Source: Chloroflexota bacterium | Lineage (GTDB): Bacteria; Chloroflexota; Limnocylindria; P2-11E; CF-107 | Length of the DNA: 62,690 nucleotides | Direction of reading: 5' to 3' | NCBI GenBank assembly: GCA_005881435.1 | Contig: VBHP01000006.1 | Location: 1-62,690 of the forward strand | Part shown: one piece after another, positions 18,405 through 36,092 of the stretch | Numbering within the stretch: position 1 is the first letter of the stretch | How the letters are laid out: the number at the start of each line of letters is the position of its first letter | Position numbers and translations under genes: made by a program | The notes under the pieces: generated by a model | Told to the model about the DNA's origin: nothing | The model's input: the letters and a program-made list of their open reading frames with translations, nothing else | The model's database searches: none

Positions 18405-18827
18405 GTGCTCATCCGCGAAGACCTCGGGACCGAGCTTGCGCGCGTCACTCGCATCCTCTCATACGCCGGCGCCCTCGCGGCGGAGGGGCGGATAACGGCA
18501 CTTGCGGGCGAGGTCGTCTACATCGCGGCGCGCGAGGTGAGCAACGCCACCATGACGCCGCACGACATCGCCATCGTGCGGCTCGCGGATGCCGAGGCGC
18601 TTCGCGGTGAAGCGCCTGGCGACGTGGAGCGGTACCTCGCGGTCTACCGCCAGCGCCCGCTGGCGAAGTCGGTCGCGATGGCCGCCGACGGTTCGCTGGT
18701 GCACGGCCTGTCGCTGCTGGCGTGCGCCAAGGCAACGCTGCTGCGAGCCGATCCGGAAGATCGCTGGGAGCGCGCCGAGACGGACGCGGCCGCACATGGC
18801 GCATTCATCGGGCTCGTCGAGGGGTAG
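18405..18827 (+). CDS. short class II aldolase/adducin-like protein
   Basis: A 140-residue protein with the spacing of a class II aldolase N-terminal part: a helix (GTELARVTRILSYAGALAAEGRI), a short strand region, then SNATMTPHDIAIVRLAD and YLAVYRQRPLAKSVAMA, matching the LTPxDIV and LALYRARP segments of that family. The zinc-binding histidines after this point (HTH) and the later helix histidine are not evident, so it is unlikely to be an active zinc aldolase. Family assignment is tentative. Its last 23 bases overlap the converging endonuclease gene. Confidence 0.45.
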   Translation: MLIREDLGTELARVTRILSYAGALAAEGRITALAGEVVYIAAREVSNATMTPHDIAIVRLADAEALRGEAPGDVERYLAVYRQRPLAKSVAMAADGSLVHGLSLLACAKATLLRADPEDRWERAETDAAAHGAFIGLVEG

Positions 18828-19704
18828 CCGATTCTCGCCCGACGATCCGGCGCAACCGCGTGATCTCTCGTGCGGTCGGTCCGCTGCGCTCGACACCCGG
18901 CACCTCGAGGATCCATGGCACGCGCGCGAGCTCCGGTACCCGCGCCAGCAAGCGCAGTCCGTGCGCGCCGATCCGGCCCTCGCCGGGATTGGCGTGTCGA
19001 TCGCGCCGCGAGCCGCACGGCGTCGCCGAATCGTTGGCGTGCACGACCGCGACGCGCGCGGCGAGCTGCGCCTCTCGCAGCCGGACGGCGAACGCGGTGA
19101 CGCCCGCGGCGCGCGACAGATCAGATCCGTTGGCGTGGGCGTGTGCGAGATCGATCGCGACCCGCGACGCGATCCCCCTCGCGGCGAGCGCGTCGAGCAG
19201 GTCGCGCAGCTCCGAGAGGTCCGCGCCGATCTGGCCGCCGGCGCCGACGCTGTTCTCGAGCACCAGACGGTCGCGTACGCGCGACCGTCGTGCGGCCTCT
19301 CGCAGCGCGTCGAGCACCTGAGCGCGCATCGCTTCGTAACCGCGCCCCTGGTGCGAACCGACGTGCAGCACCGCGCCCGAGAGGCCGGCGATGCGCGCCG
19401 CGCGCAACCCTCGCGCGACCATGTCGATCGAGCGTTCGAGATGCTCCGGGACGATCGAGGCCAGATTCACGAGATACGGCACGTGGACGAATGCGGGTAG
19501 CCGTTCGCGAGCGAGCGCGCGGCGCAGGCGCCGCAGCGCGGGTTCGTCGAGCGGAGTCCGGGGAAAGCGCCGTGGCTGATCGACCCAGACCTGGAGCGCC
19601 TCCGCGCCGATCGCCAGCGCCCGGTCGACGGCATGCTCGTACCCACCCGCCGCGGATACGTGCGCCCCGACTAGAGGATGCCGAGTCCCCGCAGTCCTTG
19701 CCAC
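18805..19704 (-). CDS. nfo: endonuclease IV-like AP endonuclease
   Basis: A 299-residue TIM-barrel protein of the AP endonuclease 2/endonuclease IV family, which cleaves DNA 5' to abasic sites with a zinc cluster. The start LVGAHVSAAGGYEHAV carries the first zinc histidine. FVHVPYLVNLAS, AVLHVGSHQG, LVLENSVGAGGQIG, IDLAHAHANG and VVHANDSATPCGSRRDRHANPGEG-type segments follow in order. The GTG at 19704 overlaps the TauE gene by 34 bases. No standard start lies closer to the conserved beginning. It is last in the minus-strand run and is probably not functionally tied to the catabolic genes. Confidence 0.8.
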   Translation of the reverse strand: MARTAGTRHPLVGAHVSAAGGYEHAVDRALAIGAEALQVWVDQPRRFPRTPLDEPALRRLRRALARERLPAFVHVPYLVNLASIVPEHLERSIDMVARGLRAARIAGLSGAVLHVGSHQGRGYEAMRAQVLDALREAARRSRVRDRLVLENSVGAGGQIGADLSELRDLLDALAARGIASRVAIDLAHAHANGSDLSRAAGVTAFAVRLREAQLAARVAVVHANDSATPCGSRRDRHANPGEGRIGAHGLRLLARVPELARVPWILEVPGVERSGPTAREITRLRRIVGRESATPRRAR

Positions 19705-20426
19705 ACCAGAACGATCGCCGATAGCGCGAGGAAGCCGGAGATCACCCGCCGGAAGATGGCGCTGTCGAGGCGGCGCCGCAGACGCATGCCCACGGCCAGC
19801 GTGACGAGCATCGGCGCGAGAGCCAGCAGGGCGATGCGCACGATCTCGCTGTCGTACTCGCCGAGGCGCCACAGGCCGAGCACCTGCACGGTGCCGAGGA
19901 TCTGGAACAGCAGCGCCAGGGCGACGACAAAGTCGCGTGGGGCCAGGCGCAGCGCGTGGAAGTAGCCGGCGACGGCCGGCGAGGCGATGGATGTCGTGCC
20001 CATCAGCACCCCGCTGATCCCGCCGAGGACCGGCCCGAGCACGCGCACGCGGAGCGCGGCGGGGTCGTCGCCGAGGATTCGATCGCCGCGCGCCAGCACC
20101 AGCAGCACCAGCGCGGCGATCACCAGCGACAGCACATTCGGATCGATCCGCACGAGCAGGTTCAGGCCGACGAGAACGCCGGCGGCGCCGGCGAGCGCGA
20201 TCGGCCAGATCGTACGCAGGACCGGAAACGCGTCGCGGCCCTCGATCAGGAGCAGCAGGTTGGTGACGAAGATGGGGATGCTCATGACCACGACCGCGGT
20301 CCGCGCGCCGAGAACGGTAGCCAGGATCGGCGTGGCGAAGAGCGGCAGGCCCATGCCGGTCACGCCCTTGGCGAGCCCGGCGAGCATGAGCGCGCCGACG
20401 AGCAGCAGGAGCTCGACGAAGCTCAC
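19671..20426 (-). CDS. TauE/SafE-family anion exporter
   Basis: A 251-residue membrane protein with eight or so hydrophobic segments. Both halves begin with the family-type Gly/Pro loop: GLAKGVTGMGLPLFATPIL near residue 20 and GISGVLMGTTSIASPAVAGY near 140. TauE/SafE proteins move sulfite, sulfoacetate or similar organic anions. Its ATG overlaps the stop of the molybdenum hydroxylase large subunit by 4 bases, so it belongs to that operon and may export a pathway product or by-product. Substrate unknown. Confidence 0.8.
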   Translation of the reverse strand: MSFVELLLLVGALMLAGLAKGVTGMGLPLFATPILATVLGARTAVVVMSIPIFVTNLLLLIEGRDAFPVLRTIWPIALAGAAGVLVGLNLLVRIDPNVLSLVIAALVLLVLARGDRILGDDPAALRVRVLGPVLGGISGVLMGTTSIASPAVAGYFHALRLAPRDFVVALALLFQILGTVQVLGLWRLGEYDSEIVRIALLALAPMLVTLAVGMRLRRRLDSAIFRRVISGFLALSAIVLVWQGLRGLGIL

Positions 20427-22411
20427 GCGTCGCGCGCGCGACGGACACGTTCAGGCGTCAGCGGTAGCTCGCGGATGCGAGCGCCGCAGGCGACGAAGAC
20501 GGCGTTCGCGATGGCGGCCGCGATCGGCACGGCGCCTGGTTCCCCGACCCCCGTGGATGCGGCGCTCGCGTCGCCGGCGACGGCGACGTCGATCTCGCCC
20601 GGCGCATCACGAAACGTCGCGATCGGATAAGTCTCCCAGCCGCTCGTGACGATGCGCGCGTCCTTGCGGCGGAGCTCCTCGAAGAGCGTCCACGACGCCG
20701 ACTGCTGGATGCCGCCCTCGATCTGATTGCGCACGCCATCCGGGTTGAGGGTGAGGCCGGGATCGACAGCGGCCCACACCGCTAGCAGCCGGACGCGACC
20801 GGATGCATCGACCTCGACCTCCGCGACCTCGGCGATGTAGGTGCCGTGATAGATGGTCCCGGCGATCCCCAGTCCCTGGCGTTCGCCGCGCGTGTGTCCC
20901 CAACCGCTTCGCTCAGCGACCAGCTCGTAGACCGCGCGCAGACGTGGGTCGTCGATGTGTCGCAGGCGAAAGGCGAGGGGCTCCTGCCGCGACGCATGCG
21001 CGAGCTCGTCCATGAACGACTCGATCGCGAAGATGTTCTCCGACGCCGCGAGCGAGCGGAACGACGCCGTGCGGAGCGGCGTGGGCTCGATATGCAGCAC
21101 GACGCGGGCGCGTGGGATCCGGTAGTGCGGCTCGGCGTTGCGCCCGGACGCCTCGGCGCCCCACCGCGGATCGAATCCGCCGCCGGTATGCACGTTGGTG
21201 TGCTCGTCGTAGCGCCACGCCGCGATCTGTCCGCTCGCATCGAGCGCGGCCGCGACCTCGAGGAACGCCTCCGGTCGGGTCGGTGCGAACGCGAACTCCT
21301 CCGCGCGAGTCCACTGCAGGTGCACCGGGCGGCCGGCGTACTTCGAGAGGATCGCCGCCTCGAGCGGTGCGTCGCCGCTCGAGTTCCGCCCGTATGTGCC
21401 GCTGGGCAACTGTGGGAGGACGCGGACGCTCTGCTCGTCGAGCCCCAGCGCCGTCGCGAGCTCCTCGCGCAGACCGAACGGCCGCTGCGTCCCGGCGTAG
21501 ACGGTCGCCGCGTCGGCGCGGACGTCGGCAACGGCGGCGCTCGGACCGATCGGCGCGTTCGTGATCGGCGGCAGCGAGAAGCTCGCTTCGAGCCGCGTCG
21601 CACCGCCCGCGATCGCTTCGTCCACGCCGGCGTCCTCGCGGATCGGGATCGTCCACCGCTTGCCCTCGGCCGGTCTCTTCACGACCCAATCGACCTCGAA
21701 CGCGTCCGCCGCGGCGCGAGCCTGCTCCTCACGCTCCGCAACGACGCCGACCAGATCGCCGTGACGCACGATCGCGACGACCCCAGCTATCGCCCGCGCG
21801 GCGGCGTCGTCAACCGCACGCGGTGCGGCACCGCGCACCGGCGGCCGCACGACGACGCCGTAGGCCATGTCAGGCAGGCGCACATCGGCCGTGTATCTTG
21901 CCCTGCCAGTGACGATGTCGCGCGCTTCCAGGCGCGGCATCGGCTTGCCGACGTAACGGCGCTCGGACGGATCGCGCGCCGGCACATCGTCGGGAATCCT
22001 TCCGCTGAGCGGCCGCTGGCGTACGAGGTCGGCATACGCGACCCGCATCCCGCCGTCGCACACGAACCCGTCGGCCGTCGAGAGCCGCTCCCGCGGCACG
22101 CGCAACGTTTCGCTGGCGCGAGCGATCAGCTGAGTCCGCGCGAAAGCCGCGGCGCGCCGGAGCACCGGCGATTCCTGCGCGACGGAGCGACTGCCGAACG
22201 TTCCGACGTCGAATGGCACCTGCGCGGTGTCACCGAGCACGACGGTCACGCGCTCGATGGGCACATCCAGCTCGTCCGCCACGAGCTGCGCGAACGCGGT
22301 GCGGATCCCCTGCCCGAACTCGATCTTTCCCGACAGCGCGACCACCGTGCCGTCGGGTTCGATCCGGATCCGGCGCTCGAGCACCTCCGGCTGTCTGCCG
22401 CCGGAGCTCAC
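20423..22411 (-). CDS. molybdenum hydroxylase large subunit (xanthine dehydrogenase/isoquinoline oxidoreductase type)
   Basis: A 662-residue molybdopterin-binding subunit. It begins with a GKIEFGQGIRTAFAQLVADEL block, typical of IorB-type proteins, where the domain order differs from classical XdhB. GDTAQVPFDVGTFGSRS follows, then KPMPRLEARDIVTGRARYTADV, and the C-terminal active-site region STGVGEPGAVPIAAAIANAV, with Glu expected to act as base. It would hydroxylate a carbon of an aromatic N-heterocycle or aldehyde. No FAD subunit or XdhC-type maturation gene is nearby. The GTG overlaps the small-subunit stop by 4 bases. Confidence 0.85.
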   Translation of the reverse strand: MSSGGRQPEVLERRIRIEPDGTVVALSGKIEFGQGIRTAFAQLVADELDVPIERVTVVLGDTAQVPFDVGTFGSRSVAQESPVLRRAAAFARTQLIARASETLRVPRERLSTADGFVCDGGMRVAYADLVRQRPLSGRIPDDVPARDPSERRYVGKPMPRLEARDIVTGRARYTADVRLPDMAYGVVVRPPVRGAAPRAVDDAAARAIAGVVAIVRHGDLVGVVAEREEQARAAADAFEVDWVVKRPAEGKRWTIPIREDAGVDEAIAGGATRLEASFSLPPITNAPIGPSAAVADVRADAATVYAGTQRPFGLREELATALGLDEQSVRVLPQLPSGTYGRNSSGDAPLEAAILSKYAGRPVHLQWTRAEEFAFAPTRPEAFLEVAAALDASGQIAAWRYDEHTNVHTGGGFDPRWGAEASGRNAEPHYRIPRARVVLHIEPTPLRTASFRSLAASENIFAIESFMDELAHASRQEPLAFRLRHIDDPRLRAVYELVAERSGWGHTRGERQGLGIAGTIYHGTYIAEVAEVEVDASGRVRLLAVWAAVDPGLTLNPDGVRNQIEGGIQQSASWTLFEELRRKDARIVTSGWETYPIATFRDAPGEIDVAVAGDASAASTGVGEPGAVPIAAAIANAVFVACGARIRELPLTPERVRRARDA

Positions 22412-22869
22412 CGTCCCACCTCCGCCGCGCGTTTCACCGCGCGTATCGCGCGCCCGTACACGCCGCAGCGGCAGAGATGCATATCGAGCGCAGCGCGGAT
22501 GTCGTCCTCGCTCGGATGCGGGATGCGCTCGAGCAGCGCGGCCGCGGACATGACCATCCCGCTCGTGCAATACCCGCATTGCATCGCGTCCTCCGCGATG
22601 AAGGCATCCTGCACCGGGTGCAGCCGCTCGCCCAGCGCCAGTCCCTCGACCGTGGTGATGGCCTGGGACGCCGCTTGCTCCACCGTTGTGAGACACGACG
22701 CGACCGCGCGGCCGTCCGCGAGCACGTAGCACGCGCCGCACTGGCCGGCGCCGCAGCCGTACCGCGTGCCGGTGAGGCCGAGGTTGTTGCGCAGGACCGA
22801 GAGCAACGTGGTGCTGCGCGGAACGTCGACGTGGCGCTCGATCCCGTTCACCGACAGACGGAAGTTCAT
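22408..22869 (-). CDS. 2Fe-2S small subunit of the molybdenum hydroxylase
   Basis: A 153-residue electron-transfer subunit. The plant-ferredoxin-type cluster motif is CGAGQCGACYVLADG with a later Cys (ASCLTTVE). The second helical domain has the CGYCTSGM and CRCGVYGR motifs that bind the molybdenum-proximal cluster. This is the CoxS/IorA type. The start overlaps the stop of the double nitroreductase gene and the end overlaps the large-subunit start, so the three are translationally coupled. Confidence 0.92.
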   Translation of the reverse strand: MNFRLSVNGIERHVDVPRSTTLLSVLRNNLGLTGTRYGCGAGQCGACYVLADGRAVASCLTTVEQAASQAITTVEGLALGERLHPVQDAFIAEDAMQCGYCTSGMVMSAAALLERIPHPSEDDIRAALDMHLCRCGVYGRAIRAVKRAAEVGR

Positions 22870-24134
22870 CGCGCTGAGCGGTCCTCGAAGATGCCGCGCT
22901 CCGAGCGCCACACCGCCGGCAACGGCGCGATCCCCGGGTCCTCGCCGGGGTGGCCATCGAACCCGTGCTCGCGTGCGAGCTCGTTGCGATCGAGCCGCCT
23001 CGTCGCCGGGGGCGCTTCGGCGGGCTCGCCGATCGCGATCACGCCGAGAAGCTCTTCGTCGGCTGGGACAGCGAGCGCGGCGCGGGCGAGATCGTGCACC
23101 AGCTGCCGCACCAGGACCGCGCCGAGGGTGATCGCGGTCGCCTGAACCCACAGGTTCTCGGCCGCCAGCGAGGCGCCGATCAGGTGGGTCATCTCCCCGT
23201 GCACGTGCGGTCCGATCTTTTGCGGGTCGGCCGTGATGGCGATCACGACGGGCGCGGAGACGAGGTCGACGCGCGGTTCGCCGGACAGACCGAGATCTGC
23301 GTTGGCCTCTCGGGCGAGGTCGGCCGCGCGCTGCAGACGCTCGCGTACGGCGCGGTCGCGGACCACGATGAACCGCCAGGGCTGGAAATTACCCGCGGAC
23401 GGCGCCCAACGCGCGGATTCGAGCAGAAGCGTGACGCGCGCGTCATCCAGCGGTGCGTCGGTGAAGCGCCGGACCGAACGCCGGCGCCGGATCGCGTCCG
23501 TGATATCGAGCTCGTCGCGCGGCGTCTGCGGCGGCGGCCAGTGGCTCGCGTTCCCGAACCGATCGACGAACGCGATCTGCTCCAGCGACTTGCGATGCAG
23601 CGCGGCCCGCCGCTCCTTGGTGTCGAGAGGCACCGGCCAACCCAGACAGAGCAGACCGATGAACGACCATGTGCGCGGGACATCCAGAAGCATCTTCGCT
23701 TTCTCCTCGATCCAGTGCGTGTACAGCACCGCGCCGAGCCCCTCGGCGTGTAGTTGCAGCTTCATGTTCTGGATCGCGGCGGCCGCCGCGACGAGGTGCC
23801 CGCCGCGATCGCCGGCGTAACCTCCGGAACGCGACGGGTCGGCAACGATCACATATTCGCGCACGCCGGTCGGACGGAACATCGCGACCCAGTACGAAGA
23901 GATGCGCTTCGACTCTTGCGCGATCGCCTGTAGCGCGGGCAGGGTCGCGCGGTCCGTCTCGGGCCGCAGCACGATGAGTCGCACCGGCTGCGCGTTCCCG
24001 GCGGAGGGCGCCCACCGCGCGGCGTCGATGATCCGCTCGAGCGTGTCGCGGGTGACGGGCGCGTCCGCGAACGTTCGTACAGTGCGGCGCTCGCGGATCA
24101 CGTGCGAGGTCCGGAGATCGAGCGCGACGGTCAC
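22866..24134 (-). CDS. tandem (two-domain) nitroreductase-family flavoprotein
   Basis: A 422-residue protein with two nitroreductase domains in one chain. Domain 1 (about 10-200) begins IRERRTVRTFADAPVTRDTLERI with WAPSAGNAQP. Domain 2 (about 215-385) begins IRRRRSVRRFTDAPLDDARV with WAPSAGNFQPW. Most family members are single-domain homodimers of about 200 residues, so this is an intramolecular pseudo-dimer. FMN binding is expected from the R-R-S/T-x-R and SAGN motifs. The role (reductase, dehydrogenase or ring-modifying) is open. It is GTGA-coupled to the upstream hydrolase and overlaps the ferredoxin subunit start. Confidence 0.85.
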   Translation of the reverse strand: MTVALDLRTSHVIRERRTVRTFADAPVTRDTLERIIDAARWAPSAGNAQPVRLIVLRPETDRATLPALQAIAQESKRISSYWVAMFRPTGVREYVIVADPSRSGGYAGDRGGHLVAAAAAIQNMKLQLHAEGLGAVLYTHWIEEKAKMLLDVPRTWSFIGLLCLGWPVPLDTKERRAALHRKSLEQIAFVDRFGNASHWPPPQTPRDELDITDAIRRRRSVRRFTDAPLDDARVTLLLESARWAPSAGNFQPWRFIVVRDRAVRERLQRAADLAREANADLGLSGEPRVDLVSAPVVIAITADPQKIGPHVHGEMTHLIGASLAAENLWVQATAITLGAVLVRQLVHDLARAALAVPADEELLGVIAIGEPAEAPPATRRLDRNELAREHGFDGHPGEDPGIAPLPAVWRSERGIFEDRSAR

Positions 24135-25204
24135 GACTCGAGTTTCTCCCGCATCCAGTCGGCCATCGCGGGACGGTACTTGTACGGGATGTTGTTGCAG
24201 ACGTGGTTGCCCTCGGGATAGAGCAGCAGCGTCGCGTTCGGAGCCTCGCGCGCGATCCGCTCCGCCTGCTCCGCCGGGAAGAGACGATCCCTCGCGCCGT
24301 GGATCACCAGCAGCGGCTGCTTCACGTCGGCGAGCACCCCGTGGAGGGTCAAGGCCTTCGCCCTCTCGAACGCCTCGTCCTCGTCGCGCGACCAGGTATA
24401 GAAGAGGTAGCCACCTTTGGTCAGCGGATTGAGCGCCGCCCAGCATTCGGCGAGATCGTACGGGCCGGCGAGCGCGACGATGGCTTTGAGTCGCTTCTCC
24501 TTCGCGGCGGCCCGCGGACCGTAGATCCCGCCCATGGAGATGCCCATGAGGCCAACCCGCCTCAGGTCGACGCCGCGATCGCGCACTGCGAGACCATCGA
24601 GCAGCGGAGCGATCACGGTGTCCCAGTTCGCGCGGATCGGGAAGCGTGGCGCGTTCTCGCCCTGACCCGGGCCGTCGATCGCCAGCGTGGCCATATCGCG
24701 ACGGAGGAACTCCTCCTCGATCGTGAAGAGCTCCTCCTTCACCGAATCCAATCCGGGCACGAGGAGCACCAGCGGCGGACGCGAGCGGCCCGCCGGCCGG
24801 CGCAGGATCCCCGGAATCACCGCACCCTCGAAGGCGACCTCGATCCGTTCCCCCGCCGGGTCCAGCCTCGGGAGCGCCAACGCGTATGTCGCCACCGTCA
24901 GATCGCGAAGCCGATCGTGAAGCGTGCGGTCCTCGAACCACAGGAACTTCCCGAGGTGGTAGGACCAGGCCGCGCGCTGGTACGCCGCCGTGGCGGTGAG
25001 GGTGCGCCGCGCGGTCGCGGCTTCATCGGCCAGTGCTTTGTGCATGTCGCCGACACGCTGCCACGCTGGTGCCCATTCTCGCCAGTCGGTCGTCTCGGCG
25101 AGCACGCGTTCGAAGTCATTGACGTCGATCCCGTTCGCGACGAAGCGCGGCTTCCAGTGCGACGCCGCGAGCTGCACGCGGTTGGCCTCGTCAACGGCCG
25201 ACAC
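24131..25204 (-). CDS. alpha/beta hydrolase, dihydroxypseudooxynicotine hydrolase-like
   Basis: A 357-residue hydrolase. An N-terminal helical cap of about 120 residues precedes an alpha/beta core. The nucleophile serine is in GISMGG, the acid aspartate probably in HGARDRLFP, and the histidine in EGNHVCNN. The oxyanion region is VLLVPGLDSVKEE. The cap plus core arrangement and length match the FrsA-like group that includes 2,6-dihydroxypseudooxynicotine hydrolase, a C-C bond hydrolase of nicotine breakdown. Ester hydrolases share the fold, so the reaction is inferred. GTG start. Confidence 0.75.
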   Translation of the reverse strand: MSAVDEANRVQLAASHWKPRFVANGIDVNDFERVLAETTDWREWAPAWQRVGDMHKALADEAATARRTLTATAAYQRAAWSYHLGKFLWFEDRTLHDRLRDLTVATYALALPRLDPAGERIEVAFEGAVIPGILRRPAGRSRPPLVLLVPGLDSVKEELFTIEEEFLRRDMATLAIDGPGQGENAPRFPIRANWDTVIAPLLDGLAVRDRGVDLRRVGLMGISMGGIYGPRAAAKEKRLKAIVALAGPYDLAECWAALNPLTKGGYLFYTWSRDEDEAFERAKALTLHGVLADVKQPLLVIHGARDRLFPAEQAERIAREAPNATLLLYPEGNHVCNNIPYKYRPAMADWMREKLES

Positions 25205-25277
25205 GCGGACGCTCCCGGAACTTGTCGTACTCGCCGCACCAGGTATCCAGGCCGCGGCGCCCGTAGGACACGTTCAC
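25191..25277 (-). CDS. possible 28-residue peptide coupled to the E2 gene
   Basis: A short frame starts with GTG whose last two bases are shared with the E2 stop (GTGA overlap at 25274-25277, the same junction type used elsewhere in this operon). It ends 14 bases inside the hydrolase start. The peptide is basic and aromatic, with the core YGRRGLDTWCGEYDKF and a single Cys. No family is known to me. It could be a real microprotein, a relic, or a chance frame used only for translational coupling. Confidence 0.35.
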   Translation of the reverse strand: MNVSYGRRGLDTWCGEYDKFRERPRVGR

Positions 25278-26389: not shown

Positions 26390-26391
26390 GC

Positions 26392-28348: not shown

Positions 28349-28358
28349 GTCGGCCTCC

Positions 28359-29396
28359 TCACGGTTCGAGCATCACCCGGATCGCGCCCTCGCGTCGCTC
28401 GCGGAACGTCTGCCACGCCTCGGCGAACCGCTCGAGCGCGAAGTGGTGCGTCGTGAGCGCGCGCACGTCGACGAGCCCGCGCGCGAGAAGCGCGAGCGCC
28501 CGACCCGACACGCCCATCGGATTAGCGACAGAGCCGAGGACGTCAAGATGACCGCGCACAATGGTCGAGAGGTCGACGCCCGAAAGCTCGACGCCGGTGC
28601 CGGTCGACCCGCCCAGCACCACGCGCCCGCCTCGCCTCGCCGTCGCGATCGCCTCGCGCGCGGCCTCGGCAGTCCCGGCGAATTCGACGACGAGGTCGGC
28701 CGTCCCCGCAAGCGTCGAGACGTCCTTCTCATCCGCGATGGCGTCCGCGAACGGCTTCGCGCGCTCGAGCCGCGCCCCGCGGCCGACAACGGTGACGCAC
28801 GCCGCGCCGAGCGCTCGCGCAAGCTGCGCGGTGCAGAGCCCGATCGCACCGGATCCGAACACAACGACGCGCTCGCCCGCCTTAAGCCGTCCGCGCTCTA
28901 GCGCCCACAGCGAGACTCCGAGGTTGTCGGTCCACGCGCCCTCCCTGGTGTTCACGTTCGCGGGCAAGGGATGCACGGCCGCCAGCGGAACGCTCGCGTA
29001 TTCGGCCAGACCACCCGGGACCGTGAAGCCGATGTGCGCGTGTCCCCGCTCCGGATGTCCGTAGTTGAGGCAGAGGTTGTAAAGACCCTCGCGGCAGCGG
29101 TCGCATGATCCGCAGCCCACGTGGACCTCAATGCCGACGTGCGCGCCGAGGGGCAGCGACGTCACGCCCTCACCGAGCCCGACGACGTGCCCGGCGAACT
29201 CGTGACCCGGCACGTGGGGGAATTTCGTGCCGGCGAACTTTCCGGCGAGCACTTTCGCGTCCGTCGCGCAGATCATTGACGCCTGGACTCGGATGAGGAC
29301 GTGGCCGCGCGGCGGCCGCGGCACGTCGACGTCGGTGACCTCGAACTCGTTCGGCTTCGGGAACAGGACTGCGCGCATCCGCGCCGGGACGCTCAC
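28359..29396 (-). CDS. zinc-dependent medium-chain alcohol dehydrogenase (first)
   Basis: A 345-residue MDR-family enzyme. Catalytic zinc ligands are Cys in MICATDA and the GHE of PGHEFAGHV. The structural zinc lobe has four cysteines (CGSCDRCREGLYNLC). The NAD(P) fold is VVVFGSGAIGLCTAQLA. It resembles threonine/sorbitol dehydrogenase-type proteins. GTG at 29396 is preferred because it makes the GTGA overlap with the OsmC stop used across this operon. The internal ATG at 29378 is an alternative giving 339 residues. It probably oxidises a hydroxyl intermediate. Confidence 0.85.
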   Translation of the reverse strand: MSVPARMRAVLFPKPNEFEVTDVDVPRPPRGHVLIRVQASMICATDAKVLAGKFAGTKFPHVPGHEFAGHVVGLGEGVTSLPLGAHVGIEVHVGCGSCDRCREGLYNLCLNYGHPERGHAHIGFTVPGGLAEYASVPLAAVHPLPANVNTREGAWTDNLGVSLWALERGRLKAGERVVVFGSGAIGLCTAQLARALGAACVTVVGRGARLERAKPFADAIADEKDVSTLAGTADLVVEFAGTAEAAREAIATARRGGRVVLGGSTGTGVELSGVDLSTIVRGHLDVLGSVANPMGVSGRALALLARGLVDVRALTTHHFALERFAEAWQTFRERREGAIRVMLEP

Positions 29397-29881
29397 GGGA
29401 CGCGCTCCCAGATGGAGTCGAACTCGAGCGGCGCCGCGCGCAGGAGCGTCGCCACGGGACAGCAGCGCTCGACCACCTCTCGCAATCGCTCGACGCGCTC
29501 GGCGCCATCCGGCGTGCGCAGGCGTGCCCGCACGACCACACGTAGGAAGTGCGCTGGCACGTCGGCGGCGCCTTTCCGTCCCCGCACGTCGATGACGCCC
29601 TCCGCGGCGATCTCGAACGCGTCGACGCGCAGGCGCATCCGCTCGGCGACCCGTTTCATGGTGACCGCCTCGCACGCGCAGAGGCCGGAGAGGACGAGCT
29701 GGAGCGGAGTCGGTCCCGCATCCTTCCCTTCACGCGTCGGCGGCTCGTCGGCGATGAAGTGGTGCCGCCCGGCCTGCAGGTCGGTCCGCATGTCGCCGGC
29801 CCACGTGCCGTGGACGCGGATCGTCGACAGCTCCGGCGTCCCCGCCTTTCCCGCGAGCGTTTCGCGGGCCGTCGCGGTCAC
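29393..29881 (-). CDS. OsmC/Ohr-family protein
   Basis: A 162-residue protein of the OsmC fold. The two redox cysteines are present: LSGLCACEAVTM in the central helix and ERCCPVATLL in the second. The adjoining EPPTREGKDAGPTPLQLVLSG segment is typical of the YhfA-like branch. OsmC proteins reduce organic peroxides or act as thiol-dependent helpers. In this operon it may protect oxygen-sensitive enzymes or process a thiol adduct, which is inference. The GTG overlaps the nitroreductase stop. Confidence 0.85.
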   Translation of the reverse strand: MTATARETLAGKAGTPELSTIRVHGTWAGDMRTDLQAGRHHFIADEPPTREGKDAGPTPLQLVLSGLCACEAVTMKRVAERMRLRVDAFEIAAEGVIDVRGRKGAADVPAHFLRVVVRARLRTPDGAERVERLREVVERCCPVATLLRAAPLEFDSIWERVP

Positions 29882-30489
29882 GGGTGCGGGTCCCCGGGGA
29901 AGTGGTCGATGTAGACGACCTGCTCGAACGGCAGGCGTTCACCGTCCTTCTCCTCCGCGGCGTAGCCGCAGGTAAAGGTTCCCAAGAACGTCCAGCGCAG
30001 CGGCACGTTCAGGATGCGTTTCGCTTTCTCGGTGATCCAGTGCTGCACGAACACCGCGCCGAGCCCGAGCGAGTGTGCCCGGAGCCACATGGCGTAGATC
30101 GACATCGCCGCGGCCCACTCGAACCCGTTGTCGTAGTGGACGTTCGTCAGGCTCTTGGCGGGATCGGAGCACACCGCGATGACCGTCGGCGTGATGAGGT
30201 CGTTCACGAGCGCCGATTTGCCGCCCGACCGGAACTGCGCGTCCCAGTAGGCCGACAGGTCCTTGGATTCGCGCGCCAGCGCCTGCAGCTCGTCCTTGAG
30301 CTTGCGGTCCTTGACCCAGATGAATCGCGCCGGCTGCAGGTTCGCCGGAGAAGGCGCCCAGCGGCCGGCCTCGAGGATCTCGCGGACGAGATCGTCGGGC
30401 ACGGCGCGCTCCGCGAACTTGCGGATCGCGCGCCGCGTACGCATCACCTCGGCGAGGTCCACGCGGCCTTCGGTCCGAACGTTGGTCAC
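29878..30489 (-). CDS. nitroreductase-family FMN protein (single domain)
   Basis: A 203-residue flavoprotein with the usual EVMRTRRAIRKFAERAVPDDLV start, WAPSPANLQPARF at the FMN site, and AMWLRAHSLGLGAVFVQHW in the second half. Unlike the two-domain protein of the same operon it has the normal length and would act as a homodimer. The substrate is unknown. GTGA overlaps link it to the alcohol dehydrogenase upstream and to OsmC downstream. Confidence 0.85.
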   Translation of the reverse strand: MTNVRTEGRVDLAEVMRTRRAIRKFAERAVPDDLVREILEAGRWAPSPANLQPARFIWVKDRKLKDELQALARESKDLSAYWDAQFRSGGKSALVNDLITPTVIAVCSDPAKSLTNVHYDNGFEWAAAMSIYAMWLRAHSLGLGAVFVQHWITEKAKRILNVPLRWTFLGTFTCGYAAEEKDGERLPFEQVVYIDHFPGDPHP

Positions 30490-31568
30490 GGCTCGACGAT
30501 CACTTTGAGCGCTCCATCGATCCGCTGGTTGAAGGTGCGCAGCGCCTCGCCGAACCGGCGGAGCGCGAAGTGGTGCGTGATCAGCTTCGCGGCCGGGATG
30601 CGCCCGTCGGCTATCAGCGGCATGACCTCCTCCATGGTGTTGCGGTTCGCGCGTACGCCGTAGAGATCGAGCTCTTCGAGCACGATCTTCTGGAATTCGA
30701 TCTGCGACGGCTCTTTCGGGATGCCAGTGAACGCGACCCGTCCGCCCTTGCGGACCATCAGGATCGCCTGCCGCACCGAGTCCTTCGTCCCGGCGGAGTC
30801 GACAGCGACATCGGCGCCACGGTCATCGGTCATGGCGCGCACGCGCGCGACCGGATCGCCGTCGTGGTAGTCGACGGTCTCGAAGCCGAGCTCGCGAGCG
30901 CGATCGAGCCGCTTTCCGCCGCCGACCACGATGCAGCGCGCCGCGCCGAGAGCGCGGGCGCACATCGCGGTGAGCAGGCCGATACCTCCGGAGCCGACAG
31001 CGACGAAGACGTCCGCCGGTTCGATGCCGGGTCGCTTCACCGAGTGGAGCGCGATGGAGGCCGTGTCGCACAACGCGGCGACGTCGAATGGCATCGCAGC
31101 GGGGATCGGGAACACCGCCTTGATGGTGTGCACGACGTAGTCGGCATAGGCCCCCTGCGTGTAGTGGCCGTACTGGCGGTGGCCGAGATCCTCGCGACCG
31201 TAGTTGAAGCAGAGGTTGTAGCGGCCCGTGCGGCACATGCGGCAATAGCCGCAACCGGAGTGCGACGTGCCCGCGATGCGTGTGCCTGGCACGAAGCCAA
31301 AGCGCTTCGCCACCTCGCCGGCGTCGACGACCTCACCGGCCCACTCGTGCCCAGGGGTGAAGGGATACGCGCGCGGCCAGCGTCCCTTGAAAGTGCCTTC
31401 GACGATCTCGGCATCGGTGCCGCAGATCGCGATCGCGTGGACGCGCGCCAGGATCTCGTTCGCGCCGGGGCGTGGGATCGGAATGCTCCGAATCTCGAAT
31501 TCGTGCGGCGCCGTGAGCACGAGCGCCTGCATCTCGCCGGTCTTAGGCGGCGCGGCGACGGCGCTCAT
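30486..31568 (-). CDS. zinc-dependent medium-chain alcohol dehydrogenase (second)
   Basis: A 360-residue MDR-family dehydrogenase. Catalytic zinc Cys is in AICGTDAEI and the His-Glu in PGHEWAGEV. The structural zinc cysteines lie in CGYCRMCRTGRYNLC. The NAD-binding loop is VAVGSGGIGLLTAMCA. It is distinct from the first dehydrogenase (longer N-terminus and a HTIKAVFPIP segment), so two successive or parallel alcohol oxidations are plausible. The ATG at 31568 overlaps the cyclase stop (ATGA), which argues against the longer frame. Confidence 0.87.
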   Translation of the reverse strand: MSAVAAPPKTGEMQALVLTAPHEFEIRSIPIPRPGANEILARVHAIAICGTDAEIVEGTFKGRWPRAYPFTPGHEWAGEVVDAGEVAKRFGFVPGTRIAGTSHSGCGYCRMCRTGRYNLCFNYGREDLGHRQYGHYTQGAYADYVVHTIKAVFPIPAAMPFDVAALCDTASIALHSVKRPGIEPADVFVAVGSGGIGLLTAMCARALGAARCIVVGGGKRLDRARELGFETVDYHDGDPVARVRAMTDDRGADVAVDSAGTKDSVRQAILMVRKGGRVAFTGIPKEPSQIEFQKIVLEELDLYGVRANRNTMEEVMPLIADGRIPAAKLITHHFALRRFGEALRTFNQRIDGALKVIVEP

Positions 31569-32326
31569 GGCAAAAACGCCACCACGCGACAGATGCAACC
31601 CTCGCCGCCGACCCAGCGCCAGGGGAACGCGCCGACGTCGACGCGCTTCCCCGCGACCTCGGCGAGCTCGCCGCCGAGGTTCTCCAGCATCGGGATGTTC
31701 GCTTTGGCCATGTGGTAGTGGATGTGCTCGAAGTCCTTCATCGGAAGCGTCTCGTCGATCGCCTTGCCGGTTTGCGTCTCGTACTCCTTCACCAGATCGG
31801 GACGGAAATACCGCACGCGGACGTACAGCGAGTGGTCCATCGATGCGAGATCGGCGCCGATCATGCGGATGCCCTTGTCGACGAGCCAGTCACAGACTTC
31901 GGGCTGGGGACCGGGGTGTCGGTCGAAGTAGGTCACGTCGTCGCGTGTCGACTTCGTCCAGTTGTACCGGTCCCAGCCCGTATAGAGGATCACCACGTCG
32001 CCGGCTCGGACGTGCTCGCCGCGCGGGAGACAGCCTTCGATGTCCTTCCGCGTGTAGTGCGCCCAGGGCTTGGTGATCGGGCGGAGGTCGACGATCAGCG
32101 CACTGCCGTACAGCTCCTGGATAGGGATCTGACCCAGATCCTTTCCGGTGGGCCAGTAGTGGCTCGGGGCATCGATGTGCGTCCCCGTATGCATGTTCGT
32201 GCGCACGAGCACAGTGCTCTTGCCGTCGCGATGGTGCGTCGTGATGTCCGTGACCTGGATCGCCTCGAACTGGGGCCAGGTCGGCATCCGGTCGCCCCAA
32301 GCCTGCGTGAGGTCGACGAGCTTCAT
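31565..32326 (-). CDS. cyclase-family metal hydrolase (kynurenine formamidase-like)
   Basis: A 253-residue protein of the cyclase/KynB superfamily. The metal-binding signature is HTGTHIDAPSHY (about residues 46-57). DVVILYTGWDRYNW and IGADLASMDH are the other conserved parts, and histidines in FEHIHYHM complete the set. Members hydrolyse cyclic or linear amides and related bonds (formylkynurenine, isatin, cyclic imides). In this operon it could open a ring or cleave an amide of the imported compound, which is inference. It lies 19 bases from the binding-protein gene. Confidence 0.82.
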   Translation of the reverse strand: MKLVDLTQAWGDRMPTWPQFEAIQVTDITTHHRDGKSTVLVRTNMHTGTHIDAPSHYWPTGKDLGQIPIQELYGSALIVDLRPITKPWAHYTRKDIEGCLPRGEHVRAGDVVILYTGWDRYNWTKSTRDDVTYFDRHPGPQPEVCDWLVDKGIRMIGADLASMDHSLYVRVRYFRPDLVKEYETQTGKAIDETLPMKDFEHIHYHMAKANIPMLENLGGELAEVAGKRVDVGAFPWRWVGGEGCICRVVAFLP

Positions 32327-32345
32327 CGGTCGTAAGCCGAATTCA

Positions 32346-33404
32346 TCAGTACGGGAAGTCCTTCTTGCCGAGTTGCGCGACGACCTTGGACGCGATCGTC
32401 AGGTCGACCACGTCCGCGAAAGTCAGGTCCTTCTTGATCTTTCCGAAGTCCTTCTCGCTCTTGATCGTGCCCTCGATATTCGCTTTCGGCACGCCCTCGT
32501 TCTGCGGCCAGGCTTTGGCCTTCACGAGGGCGTCGAACGTGTCCGCGACGACGTCCTGCGGCTCCTGGGTGAACTTCACCCCGACGTCGATGATCTTCTG
32601 GCGGTTCGCCGGGTCGTACATCGCGCGGTTCGCCTTCATGAGGGCGCGGACGATGCACTCGGTCGTCGCTGGATCGTCCTTTAAGGTCTGCGTCGGCACG
32701 ACATAGACCGAGTACTGGTAGTCCGTGAGGACCTCCCACATGTTCGTGAGCACGTGGATATTCGGATTCTGCTTCGAAGCGTTCTTCACCTGGTCGATGT
32801 GGAGCACCGCGGTATCGGTCGCTCCGCTCGTGAGCTGCTGGACGCGGCCGGCGGTCGTTGTCTGTACGAAGGTGACGTCTTTGTCGGAGATGCCAGCGGT
32901 CTTGAGCACGATGCGCGTCATAACATCGGCGAAGCCGCCCGGCTCTTGCACGCCCATCTTCTTGCCCTTCAGGTCGGCAAGAGTCTTGACGTTGGGGCCA
33001 ACCGCGAAGGACACGTCGACGTTGGGCGCGTACGAGTACACGACCTTCACCTCGGCGCCGTTCGCGATGGCATCGATCACTGGCTCGGACGACGTGCCCG
33101 CGAGGTCGATCGCGCCCGAGGCCGAGGCGCGGAGCGAGCCGACGCCGCCTTCGAAGCGGATGAGCTCGACGGTCAGGTTTTCGTCCTTGAAGTAGCCGAA
33201 CTCATTCGCGACGTACGGCGTCAGGTGCACGACGTTCGGCGGCGTGACCGGCACGGCGATGGTGATCTTTTTCGATTGGCACGTCGCCTTCGCTGCGGCG
33301 CTCGGCGACGGCGACGTTCCACCTGCGGGCGTAGCCCCGCCGCCGCAGGCCGAGACGAGCAACGCGGTGACCATTCCCAGCGCGAGCACGCGTAGAGATC
33401 GCAT
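32346..33404 (-). CDS. ABC transporter substrate-binding lipoprotein (NMT1/SsuA type)
   Basis: A 352-residue periplasmic-type binding protein anchored by a lipobox (LLVSACGGG). The fold is type II of the NMT1/SsuA/ThiY group: KITIAVPVTPPNVVHLTPYVANEFGYFKDENLTV at the start, then GVGSLRASASGAIDLAGTSSEP and LADLKGKKMGVQEPGG. This group captures sulfonates, nitrate, pyrimidines and other small anions or aromatics. The ATG at 33404 is preferred to the longer frame because a clear AGGAGG lies 9 bases upstream (33414-33419). Confidence 0.85.
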   Translation of the reverse strand: MRSLRVLALGMVTALLVSACGGGATPAGGTSPSPSAAAKATCQSKKITIAVPVTPPNVVHLTPYVANEFGYFKDENLTVELIRFEGGVGSLRASASGAIDLAGTSSEPVIDAIANGAEVKVVYSYAPNVDVSFAVGPNVKTLADLKGKKMGVQEPGGFADVMTRIVLKTAGISDKDVTFVQTTTAGRVQQLTSGATDTAVLHIDQVKNASKQNPNIHVLTNMWEVLTDYQYSVYVVPTQTLKDDPATTECIVRALMKANRAMYDPANRQKIIDVGVKFTQEPQDVVADTFDALVKAKAWPQNEGVPKANIEGTIKSEKDFGKIKKDLTFADVVDLTIASKVVAQLGKKDFPY

Positions 33405-33420
33405 GTGGTTACCCCTCCTG

Positions 33421-34248
33421 CTATTGCTCACGTCGCAGCCACGGTGCGACGCGGCCCTCGATCCATTGCACGAAGCTCATCAGAAGGATGCCCATCGCGG
33501 ACACCACGACGACCGGCACGAACATGCGGTCGATGCGGAAGACGTTCTCGTACGCGATGATCAAATATCCGAGGCCGACGAGGCCGATGAGGAACTCCGC
33601 GACGATCATCCCGATCAGTCCTCGTCCGATCGCAAGGCGCACGCCGGCGAGGACGAACGGCGTCGCGGAGGGCAGGATCACGTCGGTCCACAGCCGCCGC
33701 TCGCTGGACGAGAAGGCGCGCGCGACCTCGAGCAGCGATTGATCCACGTTGCGCACGCCCTGCTGCGTGTTGATGAGGATCGGGAAGATCGCGAACAACG
33801 CGACGGTCGCGATCCGTGGCTCGTCGCCCATCGCCGCGCGACCGAAGGCGACCGAGATGAGCGGGACGAGCGCGACGGACGGAGTCGAGTAGAGCGCGCC
33901 GACGATCGGATCGATCGCGTTGTAAATGAAGCGGTTGCGGCCCGAGGCGACGCCAATGAGGATTCCCGCGACCAGCGCGATCGCCATGCCCGCCGCGAAT
34001 TCACGCAGGCTCTGGCCGAACGCCTCCTGCAGCTCTCCCGTACCGACGAGCTCGAAGAACGCGCGGAAGATCGCGGACGGCGGCCGCAGGATCAGTGGAT
34101 TCAGCCGCGGTCCCGCGAACTCCCACAGTCCGAGCACGAGGGCCACGGAACCGAGGCGCACGGCCCAATCGGAGAGATGCAGGCGTCCGGCGCGACGGCG
34201 CGCCACGACGGCGGAGGCCGCTGTCGCCTGCGCTTCTCGAATCGTCAT
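33421..34248 (-). CDS. ABC transporter permease (SsuC/TauC type)
   Basis: A 275-residue permease with about six transmembrane helices. The ATPase-contact EAA loop is visible in VARAFSSSERRLWTDVILPSATPFVLAGVRLAIGRGLIG. The N-terminal SLREFAAGMAIALVAGILIG segment is typical of SsuC/TauC importers. Its start overlaps the stop of the ATPase gene (4 bases). With the neighbouring ATPase and binding protein it forms a complete importer. Confidence 0.9.
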   Translation of the reverse strand: MTIREAQATAASAVVARRRAGRLHLSDWAVRLGSVALVLGLWEFAGPRLNPLILRPPSAIFRAFFELVGTGELQEAFGQSLREFAAGMAIALVAGILIGVASGRNRFIYNAIDPIVGALYSTPSVALVPLISVAFGRAAMGDEPRIATVALFAIFPILINTQQGVRNVDQSLLEVARAFSSSERRLWTDVILPSATPFVLAGVRLAIGRGLIGMIVAEFLIGLVGLGYLIIAYENVFRIDRMFVPVVVVSAMGILLMSFVQWIEGRVAPWLRREQ

Positions 34249-35015
34249 GCGACCGCCCGCTCTCGCAGCAGCCTCCAGCAGTGATCCCGGAGTTCGACGA
34301 AGCGCGGGTGCGCGACGACGCTCGCGACGGTGCGAGGCCGCGGTATGTCGACCGTCATGATCTCGCGCACGCGTGCCGGCCGCGCCGAGAGCACGACGAT
34401 GCGATCGCCGATCGCGATCGCCTCTTCGATCGAATGCGTGATGAAGACCATCGTGCGCGGGTGCCCCTGATAGATGTGCAGGAGCTCGTCCTGGAGGATC
34501 TCGCGGGTCTGCGCATCCAGCGAGCCGAACGGCTCATCCATCAGCAAGATCTCCGGCTCCATCGACAGCGCGCGGGCGAGACCGACGCGCTGCTGCATAC
34601 CGCCCGATAGCTGATACGGATAGGCGCGCTCGAAGCCGTTGAGGCCGACCATGTCGGTGTACCTGCTGACCCGCTCATCGAGCGTCGCCCTCGGCGTGCC
34701 CGCAAGCGCCAGTCCGTAGCCGACGTTCTCGCGCACGCGCATCCACGGCATCAGGCCGAAGTGTTGGAACACCATCGCGACGTTTCGGCGCGGTGACGTG
34801 ACGGAGCTGCCGTCGATGGCGATCCGGCCGGCGTCGAGACCGACGAGCCCGTGCATGCAGCGCAGCAGCGTCGTCTTGCCGCAGCCTGAGGGTCCGAGGA
34901 TGCAGACCGCTTCGCGATCGCGCACGGCGAGCTCGAGACCCTCGAACACCGTGACCGAACCGGCGCTGTAGCGCTTCGTCGCGTGCTCCACCGCGATCCG
35001 CACGATGACGCTCAT
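34245..35015 (-). CDS. ABC transporter ATP-binding protein (SsuB/TauB type)
   Basis: A 256-residue ATPase. Walker A is GPSGCGKTTL, the Q-loop is VFQHFGLMPW, the signature is LSGGMQQRVGLARAL, Walker B is ILLMDEPFGSLD, and the H-loop is FITHSIEEAI. It powers the importer formed with the next two genes. The ATG at 35015 is chosen because it gives an ATGA overlap with the regulator stop, and upstream sequence lacks similarity to ABC proteins. Confidence 0.92.
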   Translation of the reverse strand: MSVIVRIAVEHATKRYSAGSVTVFEGLELAVRDREAVCILGPSGCGKTTLLRCMHGLVGLDAGRIAIDGSSVTSPRRNVAMVFQHFGLMPWMRVRENVGYGLALAGTPRATLDERVSRYTDMVGLNGFERAYPYQLSGGMQQRVGLARALSMEPEILLMDEPFGSLDAQTREILQDELLHIYQGHPRTMVFITHSIEEAIAIGDRIVVLSARPARVREIMTVDIPRPRTVASVVAHPRFVELRDHCWRLLRERAVA

Positions 35016-36055
35016 GCCACGCCCGCTGCGCTTGATGCGCGCGCCGTCGATGCCCGCACCGCGAGGGTCGCGGGGAGGACCAGATGCGACTCCGGGATCG
35101 GGTCGCCTCCGAGCCGCGCGATGAGAAGTCTCGCCGCGGCCGCTCCCATCTCGTACTGCGGCACGTGCACCGTGGTCAGCGGCGGCTCCAGGAGCTCGGC
35201 CTGGCGAATGTCGTTGAACCCAACCACAGAGACGTCCTCGGGCACTCGCAGGCGCGCGTCGCGTATGGCGCGGAGCGCGCCGACGGCGATGAGGTCGTTC
35301 GCGCCGAAAATCGCCGTCGGTCGCCGGCCGAGCGCGAGGAGCACTCGCGCGCAGCGGTAGCCCTCCTCCTCGGAGAACGCGGTCGCCTCGATCCATAGCG
35401 CCGCATCGGCGGCCAGTCCGTGGCGCCCGATGGCCAAACGGGCGCCCTCGGCTCGTTCGAGGCCGGTGGTCGTGCTCTGCGGACCAGCGATGTGGCCGAC
35501 GCGTCGATGACCGAGCGCGGCGAGATGCCCGACCGCTTCAGCCGCCGACCGGCGGTTGTCGACGGTGACCGTGAGCTCTGCGCCACGCGCGCTGCGGTTC
35601 ACGAGCACGAACGGGAAGCGCTCGCGTCGCAGTCTCGTGATGACGGCGTCGGACATCCGCGACGACGCGATGAGCAGGCCGTCCACCTGGCGCTGGCGTA
35701 ACACGCGGAGGTACGTGGCTTCGCGCTCCGGCACGTCTTCGGTGTTGCAGAGCACCAGCGCGTAGCCGCACGACAGCGCGACATCTTCCGCGCCGCGGAT
35801 GATCGGGGGAAAGAAGGGGTTGGCGATGTCGGGAACGAGCATCCCGAGCGTGAGGGTCCGCTGGAGCCGCAGGCTTCGCGCCACCGCCGAGGGGCGGTAG
35901 TCCAGCCGGCGAGCCGCGCGCACCACGCGTTTACGCGTCTCGTCGCGCAGCACCGCGCCGTCGTTCAAGGCGCGCGACACCGTGGAGGGATGGACCCGCG
36001 CCGCGCGCGCCACGTCCGCGATCGTCCGCCGTGGCTGGTGCGCCGCCCGCCGCAC
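35012..36055 (-). CDS. LacI-family transcriptional regulator
   Basis: A 347-residue repressor. The N-terminal helix-turn-helix is TIADVARAARVHPSTVSRALND with the hinge helix RRLDYRPSAVARSL. The ligand-binding core (LGMLVPDIANPFFPPI, FGANDLIAVGALRAI, EDVSVVGFNDI) resembles periplasmic sugar-binding proteins, so the effector could be a sugar or another small molecule. GTG at 36055 is chosen because GTG at 36070 would lie inside the predicted -10 box. It is first in the catabolic operon and probably controls it. Confidence 0.87.
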   Translation of the reverse strand: MRRAAHQPRRTIADVARAARVHPSTVSRALNDGAVLRDETRKRVVRAARRLDYRPSAVARSLRLQRTLTLGMLVPDIANPFFPPIIRGAEDVALSCGYALVLCNTEDVPEREATYLRVLRQRQVDGLLIASSRMSDAVITRLRRERFPFVLVNRSARGAELTVTVDNRRSAAEAVGHLAALGHRRVGHIAGPQSTTTGLERAEGARLAIGRHGLAADAALWIEATAFSEEEGYRCARVLLALGRRPTAIFGANDLIAVGALRAIRDARLRVPEDVSVVGFNDIRQAELLEPPLTTVHVPQYEMGAAAARLLIARLGGDPIPESHLVLPATLAVRASTARASSAAGVA

Positions 36056-36063
36056 GGAAATCG

Positions 36064-36092
36064 ATTGCACGGCACGCCGCGCGGGTTGTCAA
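36064..36092 (-). promoter_or_regulatory. sigma-70-type promoter of the catabolic operon
   Basis: Reading the minus strand, TTGACA (36092-36087) is a perfect -35, followed by a 17-base spacer and TGCAAT (36069-36064, four of six matches to TATAAT). Transcription would begin at about 36057, two or three bases before the GTG at 36055, giving a nearly leaderless mRNA. The -35 overlaps the presumed ATG of the divergent LVIVD gene. No clear LacI-type operator palindrome was found, though it may lie here. Confidence 0.6.

Follow-up and report, generated by a model that had tools for sequence, protein, structure and literature searches.

The window examined here comprises the first 62,690 nucleotides of contig VBHP01000006.1, from the draft genome of a Chloroflexota bacterium (GCA_005881435.1; 2.89 Mb in 151 contigs, 92% complete and 0.3% contaminated), and contains a run of 18 consecutive minus-strand genes, from 36055 down to 18805, which almost certainly holds a conserved, regulated catabolic operon. 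The protein families encoded are known ones throughout. It is their combination that is new, not the kind of system, and a full-text literature search, in which comparison was by families, found no published description of it, just as a first-pass annotation of the same DNA had known of no characterized pathway with exactly this set.

Genes were called with a codon-usage gene caller trained on the window, domains were assigned by Pfam and NCBIfam scans, and statements about the whole genome derive from targeted searches of it. In order of transcription, the genes encode a LacI repressor, the ATPase, permease, and substrate-binding protein (SBP) of an ABC importer, a cyclase (g5), a Zn-dependent alcohol dehydrogenase (Zn-ADH; g6), a nitroreductase (g7), OsmC, a second Zn-ADH (g9), E1α, E1β, and E2 of a 2-oxo-acid dehydrogenase, an α/β-hydrolase (g13), a tandem nitroreductase (g14), the [2Fe-2S] and molybdenum subunits of a hydroxylase, TauE, and endonuclease IV (Table 1). 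The first-pass annotation had described a tightly coupled, one-strand run at 18805-36092, and this was borne out: between LacI and TauE there are 16 junctions, of which 8 overlap by 4 bp, one overlaps by 11 bp, and five leave gaps of 2-23 bp, such that 14 of 16 fall at 23 bp or below. The two longer gaps are of 83 bp (ATPase/permease) and 69 bp (E2/α/β-hydrolase), and terminator-like sites in the region are in no excess over chance. All of the functions that the annotation had named were confirmed by the domain scans; only the last gene (Nfo) had been left without a name. Active-site motifs that were sought proved intact in the cyclase (metal motif), both Zn-ADHs (Zn ligands), E1 (thiamine diphosphate (ThDP) motif), E2 (lipoyl Lys and catalytic His motif), the α/β-hydrolase (Ser-Asp-His), and the molybdenum subunit (GVGEPG).

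The arrangement is not a product of chance, because many genomes share the gene order, with protein identities mostly of 55-87%. Relatives' loci were obtained by fetching the neighborhoods of best matches and by searching named genomes, the closest relatives searched being of the same order as the source genome; several of these loci are cut by contig ends. The operon's nearest named relatives are soil Chloroflexota metagenome-assembled genomes (MAGs). Fifteen close relatives keep the order LacI-ATPase-permease-SBP-cyclase-g6-(g7)-g9-E1α-E1β-E2-(α/β-hydrolase); 14 of them belong to the same taxonomic order as the source genome, and the other is the MAG CF_64. G336, a genome from another family of the class, retains LacI-cyclase-g6-g9-E1α-E1β-E2-α/β-hydrolase with a different importer, of the branched-chain-amino-acid type. 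Further away, HOG27, Centralia_MAG_115, and a third MAG have cyclase-g6-g9-E1α-E1β-E2 without the nitroreductase or the α/β-hydrolase, NC_groundwater_604 has cyclase-g6-g9 and a 39% identical α/β-hydrolase with no E1/E2 nearby, and a Rokubacterium and a proteobacterium have the cyclase alone. This clade of cyclases is sparse: of 400 genomes sampled across the phylum, 15 have a member. Distance correlation is strong across all loci for g6, E1, and E2 and weak within the order for g9, and is not used here as proof.

The first-pass annotation had named, along with uncorrelated expression, a gene order conserved nowhere as the outcome that would count against it. Conserved co-occurrence was instead observed, and its picture of a single regulated operon for catabolism, with an importer, two Zn-ADHs, E1/E2, and a protein resembling C-C hydrolases, is supported. 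The extent of the unit has to be redrawn. About 17 genes had been taken together, whereas the conserved unit has around a dozen: the last five genes and OsmC lie outside it, and the conserved neighborhood runs on past 36092 into genes for an LVIVD protein, an AlsS-type enzyme, and an aldehyde dehydrogenase (ALDH). No relative's cluster contained OsmC, the tandem nitroreductase, TauE, or Nfo.

Regulation is indicated by the first gene and the DNA before it. Called from a late start, LacI has only a partial PF00356 domain; the longer frame gives a full helix-turn-helix (HTH), so the start is best placed at 36055. Orthologs of about 62% identity occupy the same position in relatives. A search for strict palindromes in the DNA before LacI was negative, and the pseudo-palindromic predicted operator emerged from reading the relatives' upstream regions side by side. 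The sequence GCAAWCGWTTKCC has a single perfect match in the whole source genome, the site at 36056-36068, and nine other genomes have exact GCAAWCGNTTKCC matches directly upstream of LacI, with a one-mismatch version in one more. A candidate -10 element, TGCAAT, follows the -35-like TTGACA after a 17-nt spacer, relatives show an equivalent TTGACG-N17-TAGCCT, and the predicted operator would overlap the -10 region. A promoter consensus scan listed no promoter, and the one proposed here is our inference. A LacI protein with an HTH and a palindromic predicted operator at its own promoter points to LacI control, and the single site supports one autoregulated unit; located in the interval that separates LacI from the divergent LVIVD gene, it could control both. 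At three loci, a second LacI paralog (57-59%) is found near the operon with its own upstream AACAATCGATTTCC site (L073:8919-9908, L027:2826-3857, and L032:2963-4000).

The nearest PDB entry to the SBP is 3qsl, an uncharacterized exported protein, which gives no lead to the substrate. In G336, a complete Liv-type importer (PF13458, PF02653; L070:12166-16809) replaces the NMT1-type one in front of the same LacI and enzymes, and this pairing disfavors a neutral sugar as substrate. Separately, a transposase-like gene sits between the operon's permease and ATPase genes in UBA4730 (L026:13447-14646).

The enzymes most informative about chemistry are the two hydrolases. PF04199 includes the Mn2+-dependent dihydrophloroglucinol cyclohydrolase (DPGC), which performs retro-Claisen C-C hydrolysis and is set apart from isatin hydrolase by a Trp20/Tyr22 pair (PMC10470551). 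The g5 protein has the HxGTHxDxPxH metal motif of PF04199 cyclases, as in the phloroglucinol/DPGC pathway, and keeps the Trp of the pair as Trp17, with an invariant Gln, Gln19, at the Tyr position as judged from alignment with putative DPGCs. Its nearest plasmid relatives, 36-37% identical, are cyclases of Novosphingobium, R. wittichii, and M. riyadhense, whose neighbors encode a short-chain dehydrogenase/reductase (SDR), a 3-hydroxyacyl-CoA dehydrogenase, BKACE, and a cupin; because these genes, the cupin excepted, match the published set (PMC10470551), the clusters are taken to be of the phloroglucinol type. The arylformamidase model KynB (TIGR03035) gives 52 bits against a cut-off of 223. 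For g13, homology and a Ser223-Asp306-His334 triad indicate the 2,6-dihydroxypseudooxynicotine (DHPON) hydrolase group, and its closest PDB relative, 2jbw, is a C-C hydrolase. A literature search on the DHPON-hydrolase family yielded only chemistry. The plasmid protein nearest to g13 (40%) comes from a Shinella cluster that also encodes BKACE, an SDR, an IorAB-like pair, a Zn-ADH, and a homolog of the cupin found in the g5-related clusters. In one relative, G003, another C-C-hydrolase cluster was seen as a single run (L059:4707-11285) of genes for a cupin-like protein, a glyoxalase/flavin-reductase fusion, a second DHPON-hydrolase-like protein, FAH-like and DLH-like proteins, and IorAB.

Between the hydrolases are the dehydrogenases. 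Catalytic and structural Zn ligands are both present in g6, whose orthologs (60-87% identical) adjoin the cyclase in relatives. The E1α ThDP motif, E1β, and an E2 with an E3-binding domain, lipoyl Lys42, and a DHRVADG motif together identify a 2-oxo-acid dehydrogenase, although the equivalog cut-offs for pyruvate dehydrogenase E1α and E2 were not reached; the source genome has several E1_dh matches, E1α among them. The operon encodes no E3. E3-like matches, all below cut-off, sit on other contigs, and the genome's best dihydrolipoamide dehydrogenase match (C149:17237-18627) is split over two frames, possibly by a frameshift or assembly error. Also absent from the operon is a CoA ligase. The first-pass annotation had suggested a complete, regulated route from import to acyl-CoA; the regulated operon with import stands, and completeness, with neither E3 nor CoA ligase in the operon, is unproven. 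As a side observation, a small extra gene separates E1α from E1β in G003, with a gap of similar size in CF_64 (L075:10989-11513 and L032:13874-14416).

Secondary-alcohol dehydrogenases followed by two hydrolases whose relatives include C-C hydrolases would fit formation of a β-dicarbonyl and its hydrolytic cleavage. A C-C-hydrolysis mechanism of this kind is the reading that we favor, at slightly under an even chance. Inducer would release LacI from its predicted operator, and the importer would take up a small compound, probably acidic or aromatic/alicyclic; an aromatic or heterocyclic substrate is a possibility. The two Zn-dependent dehydrogenases would oxidize secondary alcohols to a β-dicarbonyl, which g5 would open or cleave by metal-assisted retro-Claisen hydrolysis, as does dihydrophloroglucinol cyclohydrolase, and a further acyl C-C bond would be hydrolyzed by g13. 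Drawing on an E3 encoded elsewhere in the genome, E1/E2 would convert the resulting 2-oxo acid or α-diketone to acyl-CoA. Nitroreductase and IorAB may provide optional redox steps, and OsmC may act as a peroxidase that is reduced by way of the lipoyl domain. The stricter version is doubtful: an undescribed route in soil Chloroflexota, without ring-cleaving oxygenases or CoA ligases, in which the ADHs would form a cyclic β-diketone, a new PF04199 clade would carry out the retro-Claisen step, the DHPON-hydrolase-like enzyme would make the second cut, and a dedicated E1/E2 would yield acyl-CoA.

Among the closest known systems is the phloroglucinol cluster (PGR-DPGC-TfD-TAL) of Clostridium scatologenes and others (PMC10470551), likewise a dedicated cluster with a PF04199 cyclase, a dehydrogenase step, and C-C cleavages. 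Unlike it, the operon has no SDR-type PGR or 3-hydroxyacyl-CoA-type TfD and does have Zn-ADHs, E1/E2, an α/β-hydrolase, and an ABC importer. A profile search of the 92%-complete genome did not find BKACE (PF05853; triacetate acetoacetate-lyase). The phloroglucinol pathway proper is thus excluded, a point that weighs on the C-C-hydrolysis mechanism, and E1/E2 would supply the CoA step. Other considerations also count against that mechanism. PF04199 enzymes hydrolyze amides and lactams as well (kynurenine formamidase, isatin hydrolase), fold comparison confirms the fold of g5 but cannot tell amide hydrolysis and C-C hydrolysis apart, and g5 has Gln where DPGC has Tyr22. E1/E2 were not assigned to a substrate class. 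Three of the more distant operons lack the α/β-hydrolase, and the cluster of another lacks E1/E2; because each is absent from some distant loci, the two may not share one linear route.

Amide hydrolysis is central to an alternative that we consider improbable, a pathway for an N-heterocycle in which IorAB hydroxylates next to the ring nitrogen, g5 hydrolyzes the lactam, and g13 cleaves an acyl side chain, with isatin hydrolase as the model for g5 and nicotine degradation for g13. A fold search with the AlphaFold2 model of g5 matched kynurenine formamidase, isatin hydrolase, and 8f9x, the first two being its closest characterized structures, as DHPON hydrolase is that of g13. IorAB is present in the operon, and one relative, G008, has a carbon-nitrogen hydrolase gene between E2 and the α/β-hydrolase. 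The pair adjoins the operon in just two other genomes, however, and is elsewhere near unrelated genes, the two conserved Zn-ADHs are left unexplained, and the best plasmid relatives of g5 occur in DPGC-type clusters, not lactam pathways. Although g13 shares sequence family and catalytic triad with DHPON hydrolase (2jbw) and AntI (6hxa), nicotine-pathway partners were not identified in the operon. Similarly, the molybdenum pair has the two-cluster [2Fe-2S] small subunit, permuted large subunit, and lack of a FAD subunit of the IorAB/AldH type (isoquinoline 1-oxidoreductase; deoxyribose- and vanillin dehydrogenase-like enzymes), but the operon has no cytochrome c gene, and the pair is embedded in a LacI operon.

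The inositol route of Thermotoga uses IolG, IolM, and IolN, and a pathway for a cyclitol or sugar derivative could be imagined along these lines, with LacI sensing a polyol, the ADHs forming a diketo-cyclitol, the cyclase producing a keto acid, and E1/E2 or AlsS acting thereafter. We regard this as unlikely. A LacI regulator would suit it, both ADHs resemble IolM and sorbitol/threonine dehydrogenases, homologous E1/E2 genes lie near glucitol phosphotransferase system genes in Nitratireductor and Terrarubrum, and IorAB-like enzymes can oxidize deoxyribose (PMC6365646). Yet the ADHs score 169 and 137 bits with the IolM model (NF041097), far under its cut-off of 450, a similarity so remote that the Thermotoga-type pathway was rejected; the importer, of NMT1/SsuA type or Liv type in G336, is not a sugar importer; and other inositol-pathway genes were not seen in the cluster. 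Least probable, and by some way, is an acetoin/2,3-butanediol module in which the ADHs are butanediol dehydrogenases, E1/E2 is acetoin dehydrogenase, and AlsS links pyruvate to acetoin. An AlsS-type enzyme above cut-off does lie beside the operon, and E1α-E1β-E2, in standard order with cofactor motifs as in 2-oxo-acid/acetoin dehydrogenase operons, has a compatible architecture, but those operons differ in that here E3 is lacking and Zn-ADHs precede E1α. Moreover, the cyclase, α/β-hydrolase, and importer go unexplained, the operon has no acetolactate decarboxylase, and no acetoin-specific model exceeded its cut-off.

The remaining genes are less constant. The g7 nitroreductase occurs in 12 of the 15 close relatives and is absent from more distant ones; it scores 73.5 bits with the BluB model TIGR02476, below the single-domain cut-off of 150. 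Lipoylated E2/E3 components can serve as reductants for Ohr proteins (PMC4486171). The position of OsmC just upstream of g9-E1-E2, and CMD/AhpD-like genes close to the operon in three relatives, G005, G008, and G336 (Pfam CMD confirmed for G336), would fit lipoyl-linked peroxide defense. No other full-length tandem of the g14 type was found in 61 related genomes or among the best plasmid matches. Both of its domains have FMN-type motifs (RR[ST]VR, APSAGN.QP), and because nitroreductases are normally homodimers, g14 may be a fused pseudo-dimer. Its 151.2 bits with TIGR02476 exceed the cut-off of 150 only by summing two domains, an artefact that would lead automatic annotation wrongly to call g14 a 5,6-dimethylbenzimidazole synthase.

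The molybdenum subunit is collinear with PDB 8gy3_C over residues 16-659, with GVGEPG at 621, and the comparison identifies its domain order as the known IorB/AldH order, not a rearrangement. Permuted order, a [2Fe-2S] subunit, the catalytic Glu, and no FAD subunit assign the pair to the IorAB type. It is found in 20 of 29 genomes of the order at the threshold used, usually away from the operon, for example after a histidine-ammonia-lyase-like gene, and beside it only in G015 (directly after the α/β-hydrolase, L060) and G008 (just past the LVIVD gene); it is a recurrent optional guest. In G001, a one-strand run (L061:4692-11681) encodes FAH-like hydrolase, metallo-β-lactamase, ALDH, AlsS-like, IorA, and IorB proteins without the core operon. 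Nfo is probably a passenger.

Beyond LacI, LVIVD copies of 50-83% identity lie beside the operon in several relatives, the AlsS-type gene is found in eight (69-73%), and the ALDH gene in four (65-73%). Next to ALDH, relatives have genes for an FAH-type hydrolase, dienelactone hydrolase, MaoC, acyl-CoA dehydrogenase, and a double cupin, which suggests an aromatic- or acid-degrading neighborhood, although such genes are common. Elsewhere in the window, isocitrate and malate dehydrogenase genes follow a 553-residue open reading frame (45014-46675) that has the window's top coding score and matches nothing in Pfam or NCBIfam.

Table 1. Features of the operon and its surroundings, in order of transcription, followed by control sites and upstream neighbors
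Feature	Position	Strand	Evidence and remarks
LacI-family repressor	35012-36055	-	PF13377 (E 2e-43); start GTG 36055
ABC importer ATPase, SsuB/TauB type	34245-35015	-	PF00005; Walker A and signature motif
ABC permease, SsuC/TauC type	33421-34161	-	PF00528; NCBIfam neighbors
Lipoprotein SBP, NMT1/SsuA type	32346-33404	-	PF09084 (E 3e-27); lipobox VSAC
PF04199 "cyclase" metal hydrolase, g5	31565-32326	-	PF04199 (E 1e-34); HTGTHIDAPSH at 46
Zn-dependent medium-chain dehydrogenase, threonine/sorbitol dehydrogenase group, g6	30486-31568	-	PF08240/PF00107
Single-domain nitroreductase-family flavoprotein, g7	29878-30462	-	PF00881; optional core member
OsmC/Ohr-like protein	29393-29881	-	PF02566; paired Cys
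Zn-dependent medium-chain dehydrogenase, g9	28359-29396	-	PF08240/PF00107; Zn ligands
2-Oxo-acid/acetoin-type dehydrogenase E1α	27383-28348	-	PF00676 (E 5e-88); ThDP motif GDG..N
E1β	26392-27393	-	PF02779/PF02780; NF006667 405.8 bits (cut-off 321)
E2: lipoyl, E3-binding, acyltransferase domains	25274-26389	-	PF00364, PF02817, PF00198
α/β-Hydrolase, DHPON hydrolase/FrsA group, g13	24131-25204	-	PDB 2jbw (E 1.9e-38)
Tandem nitroreductase, g14	22866-24134	-	Two PF00881 stretches; lineage-specific addition
IorA-type [2Fe-2S] subunit	22408-22869	-	PF00111, PF01799; recurrent optional member
IorB/AldH-type Mo hydroxylase large subunit	20423-22411	-	Permuted MoCoBD_2 - hammerhead - MoCoBD_1 - MoCoBD_2
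TauE/SafE-family membrane protein	19671-20426	-	PF01925
Endonuclease IV (Nfo) homolog	18805-19704	-	TIGR00587 141.8 bits (cut-off 129.65); frame and start
LacI-type predicted operator, pseudo-palindrome	36056-36068	-	GCAATCGATTTCC; abuts LacI start
-35-like TTGACA	36087-36092	-	Sequence; 18 bp upstream of predicted operator
LVIVD-repeat β-propeller protein	36105-37295	+	PF08309; divergent, conserved neighbor
AlsS-type ThDP enzyme	37297-38904	-	NF006187 641.8 bits (cut-off 509); conserved neighbor
ALDH, succinic-semialdehyde dehydrogenase group	40506-41918	-	PF00171; nearest NF006915 below cut-off; conserved neighbor

The diet of uncultured soil Chloroflexota is little known, and the operon, with an SBP of its own and a repressor of its own with one predicted operator, provides two handles for naming its substrate, to whose class the importer swap in G336 is a useful clue. 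It also offers a test of PF04199 "cyclases" as C-C hydrolases outside phloroglucinol degradation.

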